Positions 10,340 to 23,734 of a stretch of DNA of 23,736 nt are shown in pieces (within the stretch, counting starts at the first letter, position 1; the number at the start of each line of letters is the position of its first letter). The notes under the pieces were generated by a model. It was not told the origin of the DNA. It did no database searches and worked only from the letters and a program-made list of their open reading frames with translations. The stretch comes from a virus: the IMG/VR virus record IMGVR_UViG_3300025872_000307, positions 1-23,736 of that record. One strand, given 5' to 3'. The position numbers and the translations under genes are program-made.

Positions 10340-10476
10340 ATTTAATAAAAGTAAGCAACTACGCAAAAAAAATAGGCAAGAGTGTAACATGGGTTTACAA
10401 ACTTGCTAAAGCTGGAAAAATTGAAATTGTCGAAATCGACGGAGTTAAATTTGTAAAGGAAAAAGAAAAAGATTAA
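10327..10476 (+). CDS. 49-residue excisionase/MerR-like HTH protein
   Basis: ATG 10327 opens a 49-codon frame overlapping the preceding gene by 13 nt. Residues 8-44 (KVSNYAKKIGKSVTWVYKLAKAGKIEIVEIDGVKFV) match the small winged-helix HTH_17/excisionase-type fold: helix, turn, recognition helix with WVYKLAKAGKI, then a wing with EIDGVKFV. It probably binds DNA as a small regulator or architectural factor. It is the last gene before the structured non-coding region at 10502-10595, so it might be co-regulated with it. Confidence 0.7.
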   Translation: MQTLDLIKVSNYAKKIGKSVTWVYKLAKAGKIEIVEIDGVKFVKEKEKD

Positions 10477-10487
10477 GAATTATTTTG

Positions 10488-10495
10488 TATATTTG
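10488..10495 (+). promoter_or_regulatory. -7 promoter element before structured RNA
   Basis: TATATTTG at 10488-10495 matches the Bacteroidetes -7 consensus TAnnTTTG and the -7 box of the three extended phage promoters. No clear -33 TTG element is visible 17-23 nt upstream, and the TTTATTCAAA block is absent, so strength is uncertain. The predicted transcription start is near 10500-10503, right at the foot of the first hairpin of the candidate RNA. Confidence 0.55.
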
Positions 10496-10501
10496 CATTT
10501 G

Positions 10502-10595
10502 TCTTAAATGAAGTCGGAAATCATTTAAAAAATTTATTGTAAAAACCTATCAAAAGATGCCTGTCCGACTTGGCTATTTTGTATAGGTTTTTTTT
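10502..10595 (+). ncRNA. Candidate structured small RNA with complementary (kissing) hairpin loops and terminator
   Basis: Two hairpins. Hairpin 1: 8 bp, 10504-10511 with 10521-10528, loop AGTCGGAAA. Hairpin 2: AAAAACCTAT (10541-10550) with ATAGGTTTTT (10583-10592), then CAAAA/TTTTG (10551-10555 with 10577-10581), an internal loop, and GCC/GGC (10559-10561 with 10572-10574), closing a 10-nt loop TGTCCGACTT. Loop-1 bases 10512-10518 (AGTCGGA) are perfectly complementary to loop-2 bases 10564-10570 (TCCGACT), so the loops can kiss or form a pseudoknot. Hairpin 2 ends in eight T and works as an intrinsic terminator. A -7 box lies just upstream and no ORF fits. It could be a free ncRNA, or a leader/attenuator of the operon at 10638. 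No known RNA family is recognised. Confidence 0.6.
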
Positions 10596-10637
10596 ATTTA
10601 AAATTTTGCTTGTTTTTTTAAAAACATTCACAAAATC

Positions 10638-10871
10638 ATGGCAAAAGTAAAAACAATTTTTGTAGGTGCGAATGATAGTAACACCAATTTTAGCGAATTA
10701 GAATGTTATTTTGAACATTATTCAAATAACATTATTATTACTATTTTAGATGTTGCCAAAAGCGAATTTCCAATTTCTATTGAATTGGATAAATCAACAG
10801 CTGTAAGGTTATCAAAGGAATTAAGAAGACAAATCGCTTTAATTCAAGGAGAGGAGATTAACAATGGCTAA
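10638..10871 (+). CDS. Small hypothetical protein upstream of replication initiator
   Basis: A 77-residue protein beginning 42 nt after the T-run of the structured RNA. The sequence (KTIFVGANDSNTNFSELECYFEHYSNNIIITILDV ... SIELDKSTAVRLSKELRRQIALIQG) suggests a small beta-strand/helix fold. No known domain is recognised. Its 3' end overlaps the initiator gene by 8 nt, so it is probably the first gene of the replication sub-operon. Confidence 0.6.
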   Translation: MAKVKTIFVGANDSNTNFSELECYFEHYSNNIIITILDVAKSEFPISIELDKSTAVRLSKELRRQIALIQGEEINNG

Positions 10872-11613
10872 AGAATTACCTTATTTTAAGTTTGAGCCCA
10901 ACGAATGGGAAAACGGAAATATTCAAATGTTATCGAGAGAGGATAAAGGTTTGTTTATTGATTTATGTTCAATGTATTGGAGTAGGCTCGGAGATGTACC
11001 ATTAAAATTAGCAATACAAAAGTTATGCGGTGGCAATGCGACCGCATTATTGTCGCTTTGCGAAGAAAAAATAATAGATGTAATTGATGATTATATTTTT
11101 ATAAAATTTCTATCTGAACAGTTAGGCGAATTTGAAGAAGTAAGCAAAAGAAAGAGTAAAAACGCTTTAGATGGATGGAAAAAACGTAATGAATTAAAGG
11201 GTTTAAGCGACCGCAATGCGACCGCATCAATATCGCAATGCGAAAACGATGCTATAAGAGAAGATAAGATAAGAGAAGATAATATAATATTAAAAAAAGA
11301 AAAAGTAAAAAAAGAAAGTGCAAGCACTTTGGATTGGGATAAATTTTTGGCTTTTTTTAATCAAACATTTAATAAGCGTGTAACAGTATTTGATACTTCG
11401 ATTAAAAACAAATATAGTGCAAGGATTAAAAGTGGTTATACTAAAGAAAATATTATTGATGCAATGATAACAGTCAGTAAAGATAGTTTTCATGTAGAAA
11501 CTAATTTTAAACATATTGGTTTAGATTTCTTCGCAAGACCTGACAAACTAAGCAAGTATAGTTTTAAAAGCGAAAAAAAAGCAGTTACTAACAATTATAA
11601 CGGTACATTATGA
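10864..11613 (+). CDS. Phage replication initiator / helicase loader (DUF1376- or DnaD-like)
   Basis: A 249-residue protein. N-terminal domain residues 5-90: YFKFEPNEWENGNIQMLSREDKGLFIDLCSMYW, the start typical of Lin1244/DUF1376-like phage replication proteins with a winged-helix fold. A polar linker follows (about 92-155) with NATA...CE repeats and the pair IREDKIREDN, then a C-terminal helical domain (about 156-232: FNQTFNKR ... RIKSGYTKENIIDAMITVSKD ... FKHIGLDFFARPDKLSKY) typical of phage replisome organizers. It overlaps the DnaB helicase gene by 4 nt (ATGA), supporting an origin-binding and helicase-loading role. The linker DNA holds repeats that look like an origin. Confidence 0.78.
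   Translation: MAKELPYFKFEPNEWENGNIQMLSREDKGLFIDLCSMYWSRLGDVPLKLAIQKLCGGNATALLSLCEEKIIDVIDDYIFIKFLSEQLGEFEEVSKRKSKNALDGWKKRNELKGLSDRNATASISQCENDAIREDKIREDNIILKKEKVKKESASTLDWDKFLAFFNQTFNKRVTVFDTSIKNKYSARIKSGYTKENIIDAMITVSKDSFHVETNFKHIGLDFFARPDKLSKYSFKSEKKAVTNNYNGTL
11026..11290 (+). repeat. Iteron-like repeats and AT-rich tract inside the initiator gene: candidate replication origin
   Basis: GCAATGCGACCGCAT occurs twice, identical, at 11033-11047 and 11213-11227 (180 bp apart), each containing the inverted repeat ATGCG-AC-CGCAT. Each is followed at the same offset by a near-palindrome: TCGCTTTGCGA (11053-11063) and TCGCAATGCGA (11233-11243). The second copy also forms an 11-bp tandem with GCGACCGCAAT (11207-11217). 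Immediately downstream, ATAAGAGAAGATAA is repeated at 11254-11267 and 11269-11282, then a purine/AT-rich tract. Iterons followed by an AT-rich region inside the initiator gene is the layout of the lambda O origin. Confidence 0.55.
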
Positions 11614-12962
11614 TAGACATTAGAGATAAGGTTTTTGGAGTTTTACTTAATTTAGATAAAAACCAGCAAAACGAGTTTGTAAATAATTTGCGTCCTGAGT
11701 GGTTCGATAGTCGCTTTCATGTAGCTATTTTAAAAGGGGTACAAGCGATTAAAAACGAAAATAGGTATATTGACTTACCGAGTTTAATTAAATGGCTTAG
11801 AGAGGCTAATTTGCTCGAAAAGGATTTTATGGTGCGATTGACTACTTTAATAGCAAATGCAGACTTAACAGAAATATTAAGCAAAAATTCTATTTTAAAC
11901 CAATGTGCATACGAATATTCCATTAAAAAAGTGGCTTTAATGGTTAATAACGTTAATGTTGAAATCACAAAAGACCAGCCGAGCCAAACGCGAATATTGG
12001 AAGAGCTGGAAAAAGTTAAAAATTTGTTTACTGAGAATACAAAAAAGGAGGTAAGCAATGAAGAAAGTATTGATTACATACTAGAGAAGCACCTACAAGC
12101 AAAACAAGGGGTTGTTTTAGGCTTAGAATTGGGGTGGAAATGCTTACATAAGGAAGTGATTTTAGAAAATGATGATGTTATGATAGTAGGAGGTCGTCCT
12201 GCAATGGGTAAAACAGCGTGGGCAATTTCATTAATGAAAAATATTTGCTTTGAGCAGAACAAAGTAATGGTATTTTTTAGCCTTGAAATGGCGCACGATA
12301 GGATATTAAGAAGATTGATATCTAATGTTACTGGTGTAGATAGCAACAAGATTAAATATGGAACATGTGAAGACCACGAAATAAGAAAAATATTAAATTT
12401 CAAGGCTGATGAAAGGTTGAAAAATATAATAATATTCGACGGCTCACATACGACTAAGGACATTGAAAATAAACTACAAAGTGTTAAAAATAGAGGTTTA
12501 GAGGTTGATGTTTTTGTAGTTGATTACATACAGAAAATACTACCTGAAAAATCCGACAATAGGTATCAGGAAGTTACGCGAATATCCAACGATATTAAAC
12601 GAATAGTAATGGCTCACAGAATACCGACTATTTGTTTGGCACAACTATCAAGAGATGCGGGAAAAACTGGTAAGCGTCCAACTTTGCCCGATTTAAAAGA
12701 GAGTGGAGAAATTGAACAGGATGCTAGTATTGTCGCATTTTTGCACCGTCCCGAGTATTATGGGGTTATGGAAGACGAAAATGGTAATAGTTTGGAGGGT
12801 GTTGGTGAATTTCTAGTAGCTAAGAATAGAGATGGCGCAATCGGTGTACATACAATGGATGTTAAGTTGGAAACAAGCGAATGGAACGACTTAACGGATC
12901 GACTGCAAGAACTACGAACAGAGCCTAAATATGCTAACTTTACGCAAAATTTACCTTTTTAA
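11610..12962 (+). CDS. dnaB: Replicative DNA helicase, DnaB family (SF4)
   Basis: A 450-residue protein of normal DnaB length. The N-terminal helical domain (about 1-145) is followed by the RecA-like ATPase: Walker A GGRPAMGKT (194-202), FSLEM (223-227), Walker B VDVFVVDYIQ (299-308), the sensor-like LAQLSR (343-348), and the PDLKESGEIEQDAS arginine-finger region (360-373). It unwinds the phage fork as a hexamer. Its ATG overlaps the stop of the initiator gene (ATGA), matching loader-helicase coupling. No intein or truncation is seen. Confidence 0.95.
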   Translation: MIDIRDKVFGVLLNLDKNQQNEFVNNLRPEWFDSRFHVAILKGVQAIKNENRYIDLPSLIKWLREANLLEKDFMVRLTTLIANADLTEILSKNSILNQCAYEYSIKKVALMVNNVNVEITKDQPSQTRILEELEKVKNLFTENTKKEVSNEESIDYILEKHLQAKQGVVLGLELGWKCLHKEVILENDDVMIVGGRPAMGKTAWAISLMKNICFEQNKVMVFFSLEMAHDRILRRLISNVTGVDSNKIKYGTCEDHEIRKILNFKADERLKNIIIFDGSHTTKDIENKLQSVKNRGLEVDVFVVDYIQKILPEKSDNRYQEVTRISNDIKRIVMAHRIPTICLAQLSRDAGKTGKRPTLPDLKESGEIEQDASIVAFLHRPEYYGVMEDENGNSLEGVGEFLVAKNRDGAIGVHTMDVKLETSEWNDLTDRLQELRTEPKYANFTQNLPF

Positions 12963-17491: not shown

Positions 17492-17852
17492 TTTAAAAAA
17501 AGTAAGAAAAGAAATTAGGAAGTTAAAAAAGTTAGTAACTACTGAAGAGCTAAACAAATTTAATGTTGACGCAATTGAAAATGGGGATTTGCGCGGTTTT
17601 TACACTCAATTAACTGGACACTTTTTTAGTGATCGAGCTCAAAAATTGATTAATGAAAGTGCCACTTTGTTTTACCAAGATAATGGTTTGGGGTTAACTC
17701 CTAGAAATAAAATTATTCCACCAAACTTTATGACTTATCCAAACTCAAGAAACTTTACACTATTGGAAGTTTACATGGCGTATAATCACGATAAAATAAA
17801 CCACATTTTAAAATTTTTAAAGTCGGAAATTAAACAATTAAATATAAAATGA
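17481..17852 (+). CDS. Hypothetical phage protein
   Basis: A 123-residue protein with a strongly basic helical N-terminus (MEIDLKKVRKEIRKLKKLV) and a central segment NGLGLTPRNKIIPPNFMTYPNSRNFTLLEVYMAYNHDKINHILKFLKSEI. No domain is recognised; the basic start could contact nucleic acid. It is coupled to the next gene by an ATGA overlap (17849). Confidence 0.65.
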   Translation: MEIDLKKVRKEIRKLKKLVTTEELNKFNVDAIENGDLRGFYTQLTGHFFSDRAQKLINESATLFYQDNGLGLTPRNKIIPPNFMTYPNSRNFTLLEVYMAYNHDKINHILKFLKSEIKQLNIK

Positions 17853-21352: not shown

Positions 21353-22697
21353 AAAGGAAGCTATAAAGGAACTATTAAGAGCTGAACTCTCAAGAAGAAA
21401 TTTTTGGGAGTTTTGTTTATTTTACGATAGGGAATTTTTCGAAAAAAGACCATTTTTAAAAAATGTTGCGGATGCTTTTCAGTTAATCGAGGAAGGCAAA
21501 ATAAATAGTCTATCCGTATCAATGCCACCAAGAGCTGGAAAAAGCTACATAACAACTTTGTTTAGCGCGTGGAGTATAGGCAAAACACCGCAAGAAAGTA
21601 TCATGAGAAATACTTGTACGGCTACCCTATATTTAAAGTTTAGTTACGATGTACGAAACGTAGTTAAAACCGAGAAATTTAGTAAAGTATTTCCCGATGT
21701 AAGATTGTCGGATGACAAAGCAAATCTGCAAGGGTGGAACACTAATCAATCTAAACAGGTGGGATATTTCGGTGCTGGTGTAGGTGGTACAATTATCGGA
21801 TTTGGTGCTACAAAGTTGGCTATTACGGATGACTTGTATAGAGGTGTTGAAGATGCAATAAGTGATAATAGCAACGATAAAATACTACAATGGAAAGAAG
21901 CGACCCACGATAGCCGATTAGAGCGAAATTGTAGAAAAATTGATATTGGAACACGTTGGAGTATTAACGATGTAATAGGGCGAAATTATGAAGCTGGGAG
22001 GTATGATTTAAGCGTAATTATACCAGCGTTGGACAATGAAGATAAATCGTTCTGCGAGGATGTAATGACTACCGAGCAATACCATGAGATAAGAAGCCGA
22101 ATAAATCCCGATATTTGGAGCGCGGAATATATGCAAGAACCTGTGGATATTAAAGGGCGTTTATTTAGCGGTTTAAATAAGCTATCAAAAGAGGAATTTA
22201 ACAGTATTAAAGATAAGATTGAGGGATACGTTGGTTATATTGATGTTAGCGATCAAGGTACGGATTTTACAGCGTTGGCGATTGGTGGAATAATGGATAA
22301 TAAGGTTTATATTGTTGACTATGTATTTACCCAAGCAAACACCGATATTACGCTTCCAATGTGCGCCGAAAAATTAACAGAATGGGGGGTTAAATATTGT
22401 CGTGTTGAGAGTAATAGCATGGGGGCAATGTTTAGCCGACAATTGCAGAAATTAACCAGGACCCGAATACTACAAGTGAACAATACGCGTAACAAGATTA
22501 CACGGATTATCATGGAAAGCGGATTTATTATCCAATCCTTACATTTTGTAATGTTAGAAAATAAAGAATATCATCAATTTATAACCAATGTAGAGGGGTT
22601 CTCTAAGGAGGGTAAGAATAAAAACGACGATGCTCCCGACTGTTTAGCTGGTTTATCAATGTTTTTAAAATCTTTATTTCCTAAGAATTTCGTTTAA
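21345..22697 (+). CDS. terL: Terminase large subunit (TerL)
   Basis: A 450-residue packaging motor. ATPase: Walker A-like MPPRAGKS (60-67), Walker B LAITDD (158-163), then GTRW motif region (about 202-205). Nuclease domain of the RNase-H-like type: D300 in GYIDVSDQGTDF, E355 in VESNSMG, and the DDAPDC cluster (D428/D429/D432). It cuts concatemeric DNA and drives it into the procapsid. Its stop overlaps the stop of the portal gene on the other strand by 2 nt; convergent orientation is unusual. Confidence 0.93.
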   Translation: MNKKEAIKELLRAELSRRNFWEFCLFYDREFFEKRPFLKNVADAFQLIEEGKINSLSVSMPPRAGKSYITTLFSAWSIGKTPQESIMRNTCTATLYLKFSYDVRNVVKTEKFSKVFPDVRLSDDKANLQGWNTNQSKQVGYFGAGVGGTIIGFGATKLAITDDLYRGVEDAISDNSNDKILQWKEATHDSRLERNCRKIDIGTRWSINDVIGRNYEAGRYDLSVIIPALDNEDKSFCEDVMTTEQYHEIRSRINPDIWSAEYMQEPVDIKGRLFSGLNKLSKEEFNSIKDKIEGYVGYIDVSDQGTDFTALAIGGIMDNKVYIVDYVFTQANTDITLPMCAEKLTEWGVKYCRVESNSMGAMFSRQLQKLTRTRILQVNNTRNKITRIIMESGFIIQSLHFVMLENKEYHQFITNVEGFSKEGKNKNDDAPDCLAGLSMFLKSLFPKNFV

Positions 22698-23734
22698 AAC
22701 TGCGGTGCTGGTGGTCTAATTTCAATAGTGCTAGTAATTGCCGTTGCTTGTTCCCTTGAAATTCCAAATGAAATAATTAAAATTTCCGTTGCGCTTTCTC
22801 GAGTTAAAATACCCTCGCTAATTGCTTGAGCCACCTGTACCATTGAAGTTACTTGAGCACCATTTAACGATTGAACTGGTGCGCCTTGCTCTTCCTTAAC
22901 TGGGTAGCCTAACTCGTTACGTGCTTCAGAGCTATCAATTACACCTTTCTCAAACAATGATAAAACAACAGCCGATTTACTTGCTTCATCCTCCTGTAAA
23001 ACAGGAATATGCGAAAAATCAGGTTTTAAATACAACCCTTGCGCCGTTAAACCTAGTTGTTGCGACATGGTTTGATACATTTGGGTAACTTCGGGAATGA
23101 TAGTATCTTGATAAGCCATGCGCATCCCCTCTTTAACGTTGGTAAATGTGCTATCACTTGCGGAACTAAACACGTATTTATTTAAACCGTAAGCATCAAT
23201 TATAGCCATTTTATCTTCGTTCAACTCCTCGAATAAAAGTAAATCCTTAGTAGGGTAGGACATAGGTGTCCATTGTATGTCCGCTTCTGTAAGCACTAAT
23301 TTATCTTTATTTCTGCTTACCCAATCTTTACGGATTTCGTCTTTTTCTTCTGGTGTCATTGGGATTGTTCCACCCATATCCGATTTCTTACTCGACAAAA
23401 TACCGATAGCACCCATGTTCTCCAAAATAACATTACGTTTATTGTAGGTGGCCATAATGTTGGATAAAGGGTATTTTAACGTATCAATCCTATTAATCGA
23501 ATTAATTAAATTGATACCGTCGGGGGTGTTCATGTACACCATATCTTGAAGCTCGATTTTCTCCATTTTTTGGCTATCATACCAAAATTCAAAATTCTTA
23601 ATCAATCCATCTTTGTCGATTTGATTTAGGAATTTTCCTGTACCAACAATTTTAACTTGATTGGCTGGTAAAGGCATAATTAAATTACGAATATCAAAGC
23701 TACGTTTCGGGCAATAGGCAAATGAATTGTTAAA
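22694..23734 (-). CDS. Portal protein (HK97-type), 5' truncated by window edge, antisense to terminase
   Basis: Read on the minus strand, the frame is open from the right window edge, so the M at 23677 is internal or only an alternative start (upstream residues FNNSFAYCPKRSFDIRNLI). About 346 residues are present. The pattern PLPANQVKIVG ... FWYDSQK ... ELQDMVYMNTPDG ... INRIDTLKYPLSNIMATYNKRN ... GAIGILSSKK ... WTPMSYPTKDLLLFEELNEDKMAIIDAYGLNKYVF ... FTNVKEGMRMAYQDTIIPEVTQMYQTMSQQL ... YLKPDFSHIPVLQEDE ... SSEARNELGYP is typical of HK97-family portals. The portal forms the dodecameric vertex through which TerL packages DNA. It converges on terL, which is unusual since the two are normally co-oriented. 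Confidence 0.85.
   Translation of the reverse strand, partial: FNNSFAYCPKRSFDIRNLIMPLPANQVKIVGTGKFLNQIDKDGLIKNFEFWYDSQKMEKIELQDMVYMNTPDGINLINSINRIDTLKYPLSNIMATYNKRNVILENMGAIGILSSKKSDMGGTIPMTPEEKDEIRKDWVSRNKDKLVLTEADIQWTPMSYPTKDLLLFEELNEDKMAIIDAYGLNKYVFSSASDSTFTNVKEGMRMAYQDTIIPEVTQMYQTMSQQLGLTAQGLYLKPDFSHIPVLQEDEASKSAVVLSLFEKGVIDSSEARNELGYPVKEEQGAPVQSLNGAQVTSMVQVAQAISEGILTRESATEILIISFGISREQATAITSTIEIRPPAPQF

Follow-up and report, generated by a model that had tools for sequence, protein, structure and literature searches.

Early genes of the phages studied here, among them cultured phages of Flavobacterium columnare, are preceded by a promoter and two hairpins whose loops are complementary to each other, and covariation between these loops shows that the loop-loop contact is under selection. 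We interpret the element as a cis-acting 5' leader which would control the following gene via translation or mRNA stability, a reading to which we assign a probability of roughly 55%.

Two hairpins with complementary loops before replication genes

The window, that is the whole stretch of 23,736 nucleotides analysed, is a 23.7-kb IMG/VR virus record, judged from its -7 type promoters and A/T-rich genes to derive from a phage of Bacteroidota. In the first-pass annotation of this DNA a -7 box, two hairpins and a T tail were reported from an intergenic region without ORF, and all four elements are present as described, both in the sequence and in the minimum-energy fold; the gap spans 10476 to 10638. 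The locus comprises the following features:

10488 to 10495, plus strand: -7 promoter element TATATTTG, from sequence (Bacteroidota consensus TAHHTTTG, PMC6847099)
10500, plus strand: predicted transcription start (via the numbering of PMC6847099, G of the box at -5)
10504 to 10528, plus strand: hairpin 1, from the fold, 8 bp, TTAAATGA/TCATTTAA, with the 9-nt loop AGTCGGAAA at 10512-10520
10511 to 10518, plus strand: kissing strand 1, AAGTCGGA, perfect complement of 10564-10571, covarying in relatives
10529 to 10540, plus strand: A/T-rich linker, from sequence
10541 to 10592, plus strand: hairpin 2, from the fold, a long imperfect stem whose consensus pairs show compensatory changes
10564 to 10571, plus strand: kissing strand 2, TCCGACTT, perfect complement of 10511-10518, covarying in relatives
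10588 to 10595, plus strand: run of eight T, from sequence
10638 to 10871, plus strand: downstream gene, 77 aa, no PHROG or Pfam family
10864 to 11613, plus strand: DnaD/O-like replication protein (PHROG primosomal / replication initiation O-like), encoded by the following gene of the putative operon
11610 to 12962, plus strand: DnaB-like replicative helicase (Pfam DnaB_C, 9.6e-59)

The -7 box of F. johnsoniae has the consensus TAHHTTTG and its numbering puts the G at -5 (PMC6847099), so transcription is predicted to start near 10500, four bases 5' of hairpin 1. The minimum-energy fold of 10496-10600 consists of exactly hairpins 1 and 2 (-21.4 kcal/mol; z of -2.86 against dinucleotide shuffles). 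In hairpin 2 the apical stem is GCC/GGC at 10559-10561/10572-10574, and a small internal loop holds a conserved A 5' of GCC and TA 3' of GGC. The loop complementarity, which had been given a length of 7 nt, is indeed perfect and is in fact 8 nt long: AAGTCGGA at 10511-10518 forms eight Watson-Crick pairs with TCCGACTT at 10564-10571, the first A of AAGTCGGA doubling as the closing base of hairpin 1. Between random 9- and 10-nt loops of the same base composition a 7-nt complement arises with P = 0.0012 (about 1 in 850), so a single genome alone is only suggestive.

Upstream of the leader lies a small Cox/HTH-like gene, ending at 10476. The proximity to replication initiator genes that had been reported was found, with one small ORF (10638-10871) intervening before the DnaD/O-like and DnaB genes. 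A portal-like ORF at 22694-23677 lies on the minus strand, with the other large genes of the window on the plus strand; this arrangement may reflect a genuine inversion or a joint made in assembly.

Four loci related to the window were collected through the DnaB gene. Around the RNA, locus L005 differs from the window at 26 of 581 positions, and the change of loop 1 from AGTCGGA to AGTAGGA is compensated in loop 2 by the change from TCCGACT to TCCTACT; hairpin 2 holds additional paired changes. Loci L003 and L004 have the upstream gene and the promoter as in the window, while the RNA and the downstream gene are different: hairpin 1 reads TTTGTAA-CGGTCAA-TTACAAA and the loop of hairpin 2 is TTTGACCG, again a perfect match. 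Relative to the window, these two loci contain a partial duplication of the Cox/HTH-like gene that precedes the leader (L003 3647-4100). A leader peptide (ATGAAGTCGGAAATCATTTAA, which would read MKSEII) was considered and rejected, as in L005 a stop follows after two codons.

These relatives bear on the simplest alternative, an ordinary terminator with an upstream hairpin that pairs with it by accident. In A/T-rich sequence one genome could show such a match (at about 0.001), but complementarity conserved with changing sequence in many relatives already refutes this explanation, and we consider its probability negligible.

Loop covariation across classes and scaffolds

Further members were obtained by pattern scans; the two larger ones prescribed the promoter, the string TGGCTA and the terminal part of hairpin 2 and left the loops unspecified. 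Together with a covariance model and later finds the scans gave 24 distinct sequences, designated class 1. Every one of the 24 has loop complementarity over 6 or more contiguous nt, and 19 have it over 8 or 9. Among 15 distinct loop pairs, compared over 7 bp, 102 of 105 pairs are Watson-Crick and 3 are G-U, with no mismatch. An alignment of 14 loop pairs, two rows of which are off by one base and thus lower the value, gave a loop covariation score of 0.81, against 0.20 for shuffles and no more than 0.17 once the register was shifted. As the pattern-scan list had been filtered for loop complementarity, the covariance model (R1, built from 22 members with the loop pairing not included) is the cleaner test: it gave 30 matches at E ≤ 0.01 in 0.83 Mb, with complementary loops in 30/30. 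Complementarity is thus kept through complete turnover of the loop sequences, which points to selection on the pairing itself and not on its sequence.

The stems behave as expected of RNA. Compensatory changes are present in 12 of the 17 consensus pairs of hairpin 2 (22 sequences), where G-U pairs are common, in contrast to the loop-loop pairs; hairpin 1 is retained in most relatives with stems of other sequence. Covariation in the stem and conserved complementarity of the loops thus came out for the kissing loop or pseudoknot that had been proposed from the window, and support its reading as a phage regulatory RNA.

One could instead regard the loops as an inverted-repeat operator of a DNA-binding protein, with the hairpins incidental. 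The near-absence of G-U is what a DNA inverted repeat would give, and in some members the motif occurs a third time close to the start codon. The repeats are, however, placed exactly in the loops of two hairpins with independently covarying stems, the G-U pairs and compensatory changes of hairpin 2 are RNA-like, and the motifs differ between leaders of one phage, which together make a DNA element very improbable.

A purely structural role does not account for fast loop turnover with almost no G-U. The kissing duplexes have energies of -9 to -15 kcal/mol; loops so diverse and so poor in G-U could result either from selection against pairing of one leader with another or from a strict requirement that the kissing helix be strong.

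The R1 model also matched second leaders in the same phages, which led to the discovery of class 2, GAAGCNNNGGAACTTC ... TCCNNNGCACC, with 20 distinct sequences. Three middle loop bases were left free in the class 2 pattern, and they are complementary in 20/20 (GTA, GTC, GTT, CTC). R1 and the class 2 model, R2, each detect members of the other class, so the two classes are probably homologous.

A structure-only scan, demanding a promoter-like box, a hairpin with a loop 7-mer, a strong hairpin whose loop contains the complementary 7-mer and a T-rich tail, gave 27 matches in 3.35 Mb of viral loci, compared with 1 in a shuffle of the same size and 0 in 1.7 Mb of bacterial loci. The viral matches are mostly true members, a few being repeats or coding sequence, and include scaffolds unlike class 1 or 2 (L087/L099/L103, L095, L082:14191 and L034:2683); L352 is another such scaffold. 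Both classes and these scaffolds share one plan, in which a promoter is followed by a 5'-terminal hairpin, a second hairpin whose loop is complementary to that of the first, and a start codon. Where one phage has several leaders their loops are different (8/8 phages), and in most of these phages the scaffolds differ too. A separate observation comes from L006 (5445-5573), where a promoter box and a strong terminator-like hairpin with eight T are followed by ATG and the loops are not complementary; hairpins in the leaders of genes may occur more often than kissing leaders do.

Isolates of Flavobacterium, Cellulophaga, Croceibacter, Riemerella and Bacteroides phages were examined by structural scan; FCL-2 was positive, and the Cellulophaga, Croceibacter, Riemerella and Bacteroides phages gave no convincing match. 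Leaders are present in the cultured F. columnare phages FCL-2, V186 and FCV-1. In FCL-2 (NC_027125) the leader precedes gp54, at 37494, with the loops CATCCAC/GTGGATG. The corresponding site of V186 and FCV-1, which follows the same upstream gene, holds an unrelated leader (9-bp stem AATGTAATG/CATTACATT; GTAGAGAG/CTCTCTAC) and another downstream ORF. A second leader of V186, at 38611 (GTAGTGC/GCACTAC), stands before a gene named from its sequence as a NUMOD4/HNH-type homing endonuclease. At this site in FCL-2 the leader and the endonuclease gene are both absent, and the flank behind them is identical over 315 nt:

L362 2311-3109 (V186 38611-39408) and L355 near 40530 (FCL-2): presence and absence, respectively, of leader plus NUMOD4/HNH gene

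FCL-2 retains the last codons of the endonuclease ORF (L355 near 40530), a possible scar.

Position of the leaders and their proposed mode of action

A promoter lies directly upstream in all members. For class 2 this could be compared with a background, since the search pattern contained no promoter: the -7 box is found in 20/20 (15 with strict TAHHTTTG), against 16 of 513 control windows (0 strict). Hairpin 1 of class 2 begins 5-10 nt 3' of the G at -5 (numbering of PMC6847099), which places it at, or a few bases from, the predicted 5' end.

On the other side, an ORF with an ATG start and 40 or more codons begins no more than 48 nt behind hairpin 2 in 43 of the 44 members (median 18). The spacing is bimodal, mostly 12-23 nt, and 42-48 nt in the window (46 nt), L005, L079, L104, L305, L318 and L319. 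Members of the latter group all stand before homologous genes of 66-77 aa, the 77-aa gene of the window included, although their leaders belong to both class 1 and class 2; the spacing class tracks the gene and not the leader class. The downstream genes serve mostly DNA metabolism: BT4734-like/PriCT/VapE primases, Prim-Pol/DUF3987, DUF6291 and Phg_2220_C replication proteins, as well as DnaD/O-like proteins, SNF2 helicase-methylases, NUMOD4/HNH and GIY-YIG endonucleases and a C5 methylase. Between hairpin 2 and the start codon the tail AACTTTT recurs in L003, L034, L123, L124 and V186, and CGCATTTTA is a recurrent tail of class 2.

Leader and gene travel together as a cassette, which argues for action in cis. 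The window and L003 share the upstream gene and differ in leader and downstream gene, and V186 and FCL-2 do likewise. Action on the downstream gene thus gains support from a gene that follows in 43/44, from the fixed spacing and from the common transfer. The Bacteroidota hosts initiate translation without Shine-Dalgarno pairing and tune it by structure around the start codon (PMC6847099), which, with the short gene-specific distance to ATG, suggests that control is exerted on translation or on mRNA stability.

The cis-acting leader, some 100 nt long in the window, might work as follows. Transcription would start near 10500 and hairpin 1 would fold at the extreme 5' end of the transcript; its loop would pair with that at the apex of hairpin 2, and the resulting compact kissing-loop pseudoknot would stop a short way 5' of the ribosome-binding region belonging to the next gene (in the window, the early small gene with the replication genes). 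In the kissed state the 5' end would be protected, hairpin 2 held closed and the A/T-rich start region left free for translation. If some presumed factor opened the kiss, loop 2 would become free and expression would drop. In 4-6 of the 24 class 1 members the freed loop 2 might also pair with a copy of loop 1 at the start codon: directly 5' of it there is a copy of 6-8 nt in L003, L034, L110 and L138, and one of 5 nt at the matching place in L147 and L326. No such copy is present in 18/24 class 1 members, the window included, or in any of class 2. Pairing of loop 2 with the start region was therefore rejected as a universal mechanism, being available to only 4-6/24 of class 1 and 0 of class 2; in some members it looks like an additional off-switch.

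The main rival is transcription attenuation, in which hairpin 2 is an intrinsic terminator and the kiss, formed before the 3' arm, sets termination against read-through to the replication genes. Eight T follow hairpin 2 in the window, where it can, judging from this arrangement, serve as an intrinsic terminator; the good T-run and the 46 nt to ATG fit attenuation equally well and count against control by translation or stability. All members have the promoter immediately 5', and a T-run of at least 6 follows hairpin 2 in 16/44. In 17/44, however, the run is at most 4, and recurring tails such as TTTAACTTTT or TTTTCGCATTTT should terminate poorly, so intrinsic termination is not the common denominator; the conserved uninterrupted T-run by which an intrinsic-terminator attenuator is recognised is present in the window and not across the 44 members. 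Tight spacing to ATG is, moreover, unnecessary for attenuation. We hold this explanation to be unlikely, though clearly the strongest competitor of the cis-acting translation or stability leader. The same counts limit the discrete small RNA ended at hairpin 2 which the first-pass annotation had suggested: it is possible in the window and does not extend to the family in general.

A trans-acting small RNA of about 95 nt, with loop 2 as a seed for other RNAs and loop 1 as a built-in decoy or dimerisation site, would account for the own promoter and, in the window, the terminator, as well as for loop pairs that differ within one phage as if avoiding cross-talk. The sequence AAGTCGGAAAT, which matches the loop-1 region of the window over 11 nt, recurs at 17820-17830, 18-28 nt 5' of ATG 17849 of another gene; this copy may be due to chance or possibly be a second target of loop 2. 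Loop-1 7-mers are, however, not enriched elsewhere in the phage contigs, where a search for trans targets with them gave about the chance frequency, and the leader is always near, and on the same strand as, a downstream gene, with which it travels. We regard this reading as improbable. Antisense-like control of replication, also proposed from the window, is not supported, as an opposite-strand promoter is found in only 3/44 and copies of the loop motif in the own genome are not enriched; action of the RNA in trans or as an antisense is less probable than that of a leader in cis.

Implications and comparison with known systems

Structured leaders are, to our knowledge, hardly known in Bacteroidota phages. 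A loop-loop contact that survives full sequence turnover makes an unusually clear case for a functional tertiary contact, and one plan on several scaffolds suggests general control of early phage genes. We propose tentatively, at somewhat below even odds, that lytic phages of Bacteroidota share sequence-agnostic cassettes of promoter and kissing loop, several per phage, which move together with early genes (replication initiators, primases, homing endonucleases) and whose loops diversify to avoid cross-pairing. If true, they would form a natural library of orthogonal kissing-loop switches; the perfectly matched and mutually different loop pairs are potential parts for RNA circuits. Since cultured Flavobacterium phages carry the leaders, their role is testable at once.

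The Rfam search that had been recommended returned no family: the window and 14 related loci have no match at the gathering threshold of Rfam 15, the permissive matches being far below it. Searched at the nucleotide level with the window and with concatenated members, the INPHARED phages gave no match, and no description of such leaders was found in the literature searched. A pattern scan of genome contigs for prophage copies returned chance matches only, and R2 found 0 members in 299 genomes from the family of one Flavobacterium genome, a weak search without positive control.

The put RNA of phage HK022 consists of two hairpins which open an early transcript and act on the nascent transcript and RNA polymerase. 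The leaders likewise place two hairpins at the predicted transcript start; they show loop-loop covariation, and we know of none in put. In the packaging RNA (pRNA) of phi29 complementary loops pair between molecules around the packaging motor, so both systems have two complementary loops in one small phage RNA. Gene context argues against a pRNA of this type, as the leader stands before replication genes, several occur per phage, and the window phage has an ordinary large terminase gene. In antisense-RNA attenuators such as pT181 kissing hairpins decide the terminator in a replication-gene leader and the partner is a separate antisense RNA, whereas both loops lie in the phage leader itself.

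Nearest in function, as far as it is described in PMC8383071, is the repZ leader of the IncI-alpha plasmid ColIb-P9 (Asano and Mizobuchi 1998, cited there), where a pseudoknot 5' of the ribosome-binding region controls translation. According to that account repZ, too, is a replication-gene leader in which distant elements pair via a hairpin loop upstream of the start. The antisense RNA Inc competes for this pairing in ColIb-P9 (PMC8383071), while the phage leaders have no shared opposite-strand promoter (TAHHTTTG box in 3/44). From what is reported there the two also differ in sequence, host phylum and gene, and in the phage leaders hairpin 1 stands at the 5' end and the scaffold recurs before many genes, homing endonucleases included.
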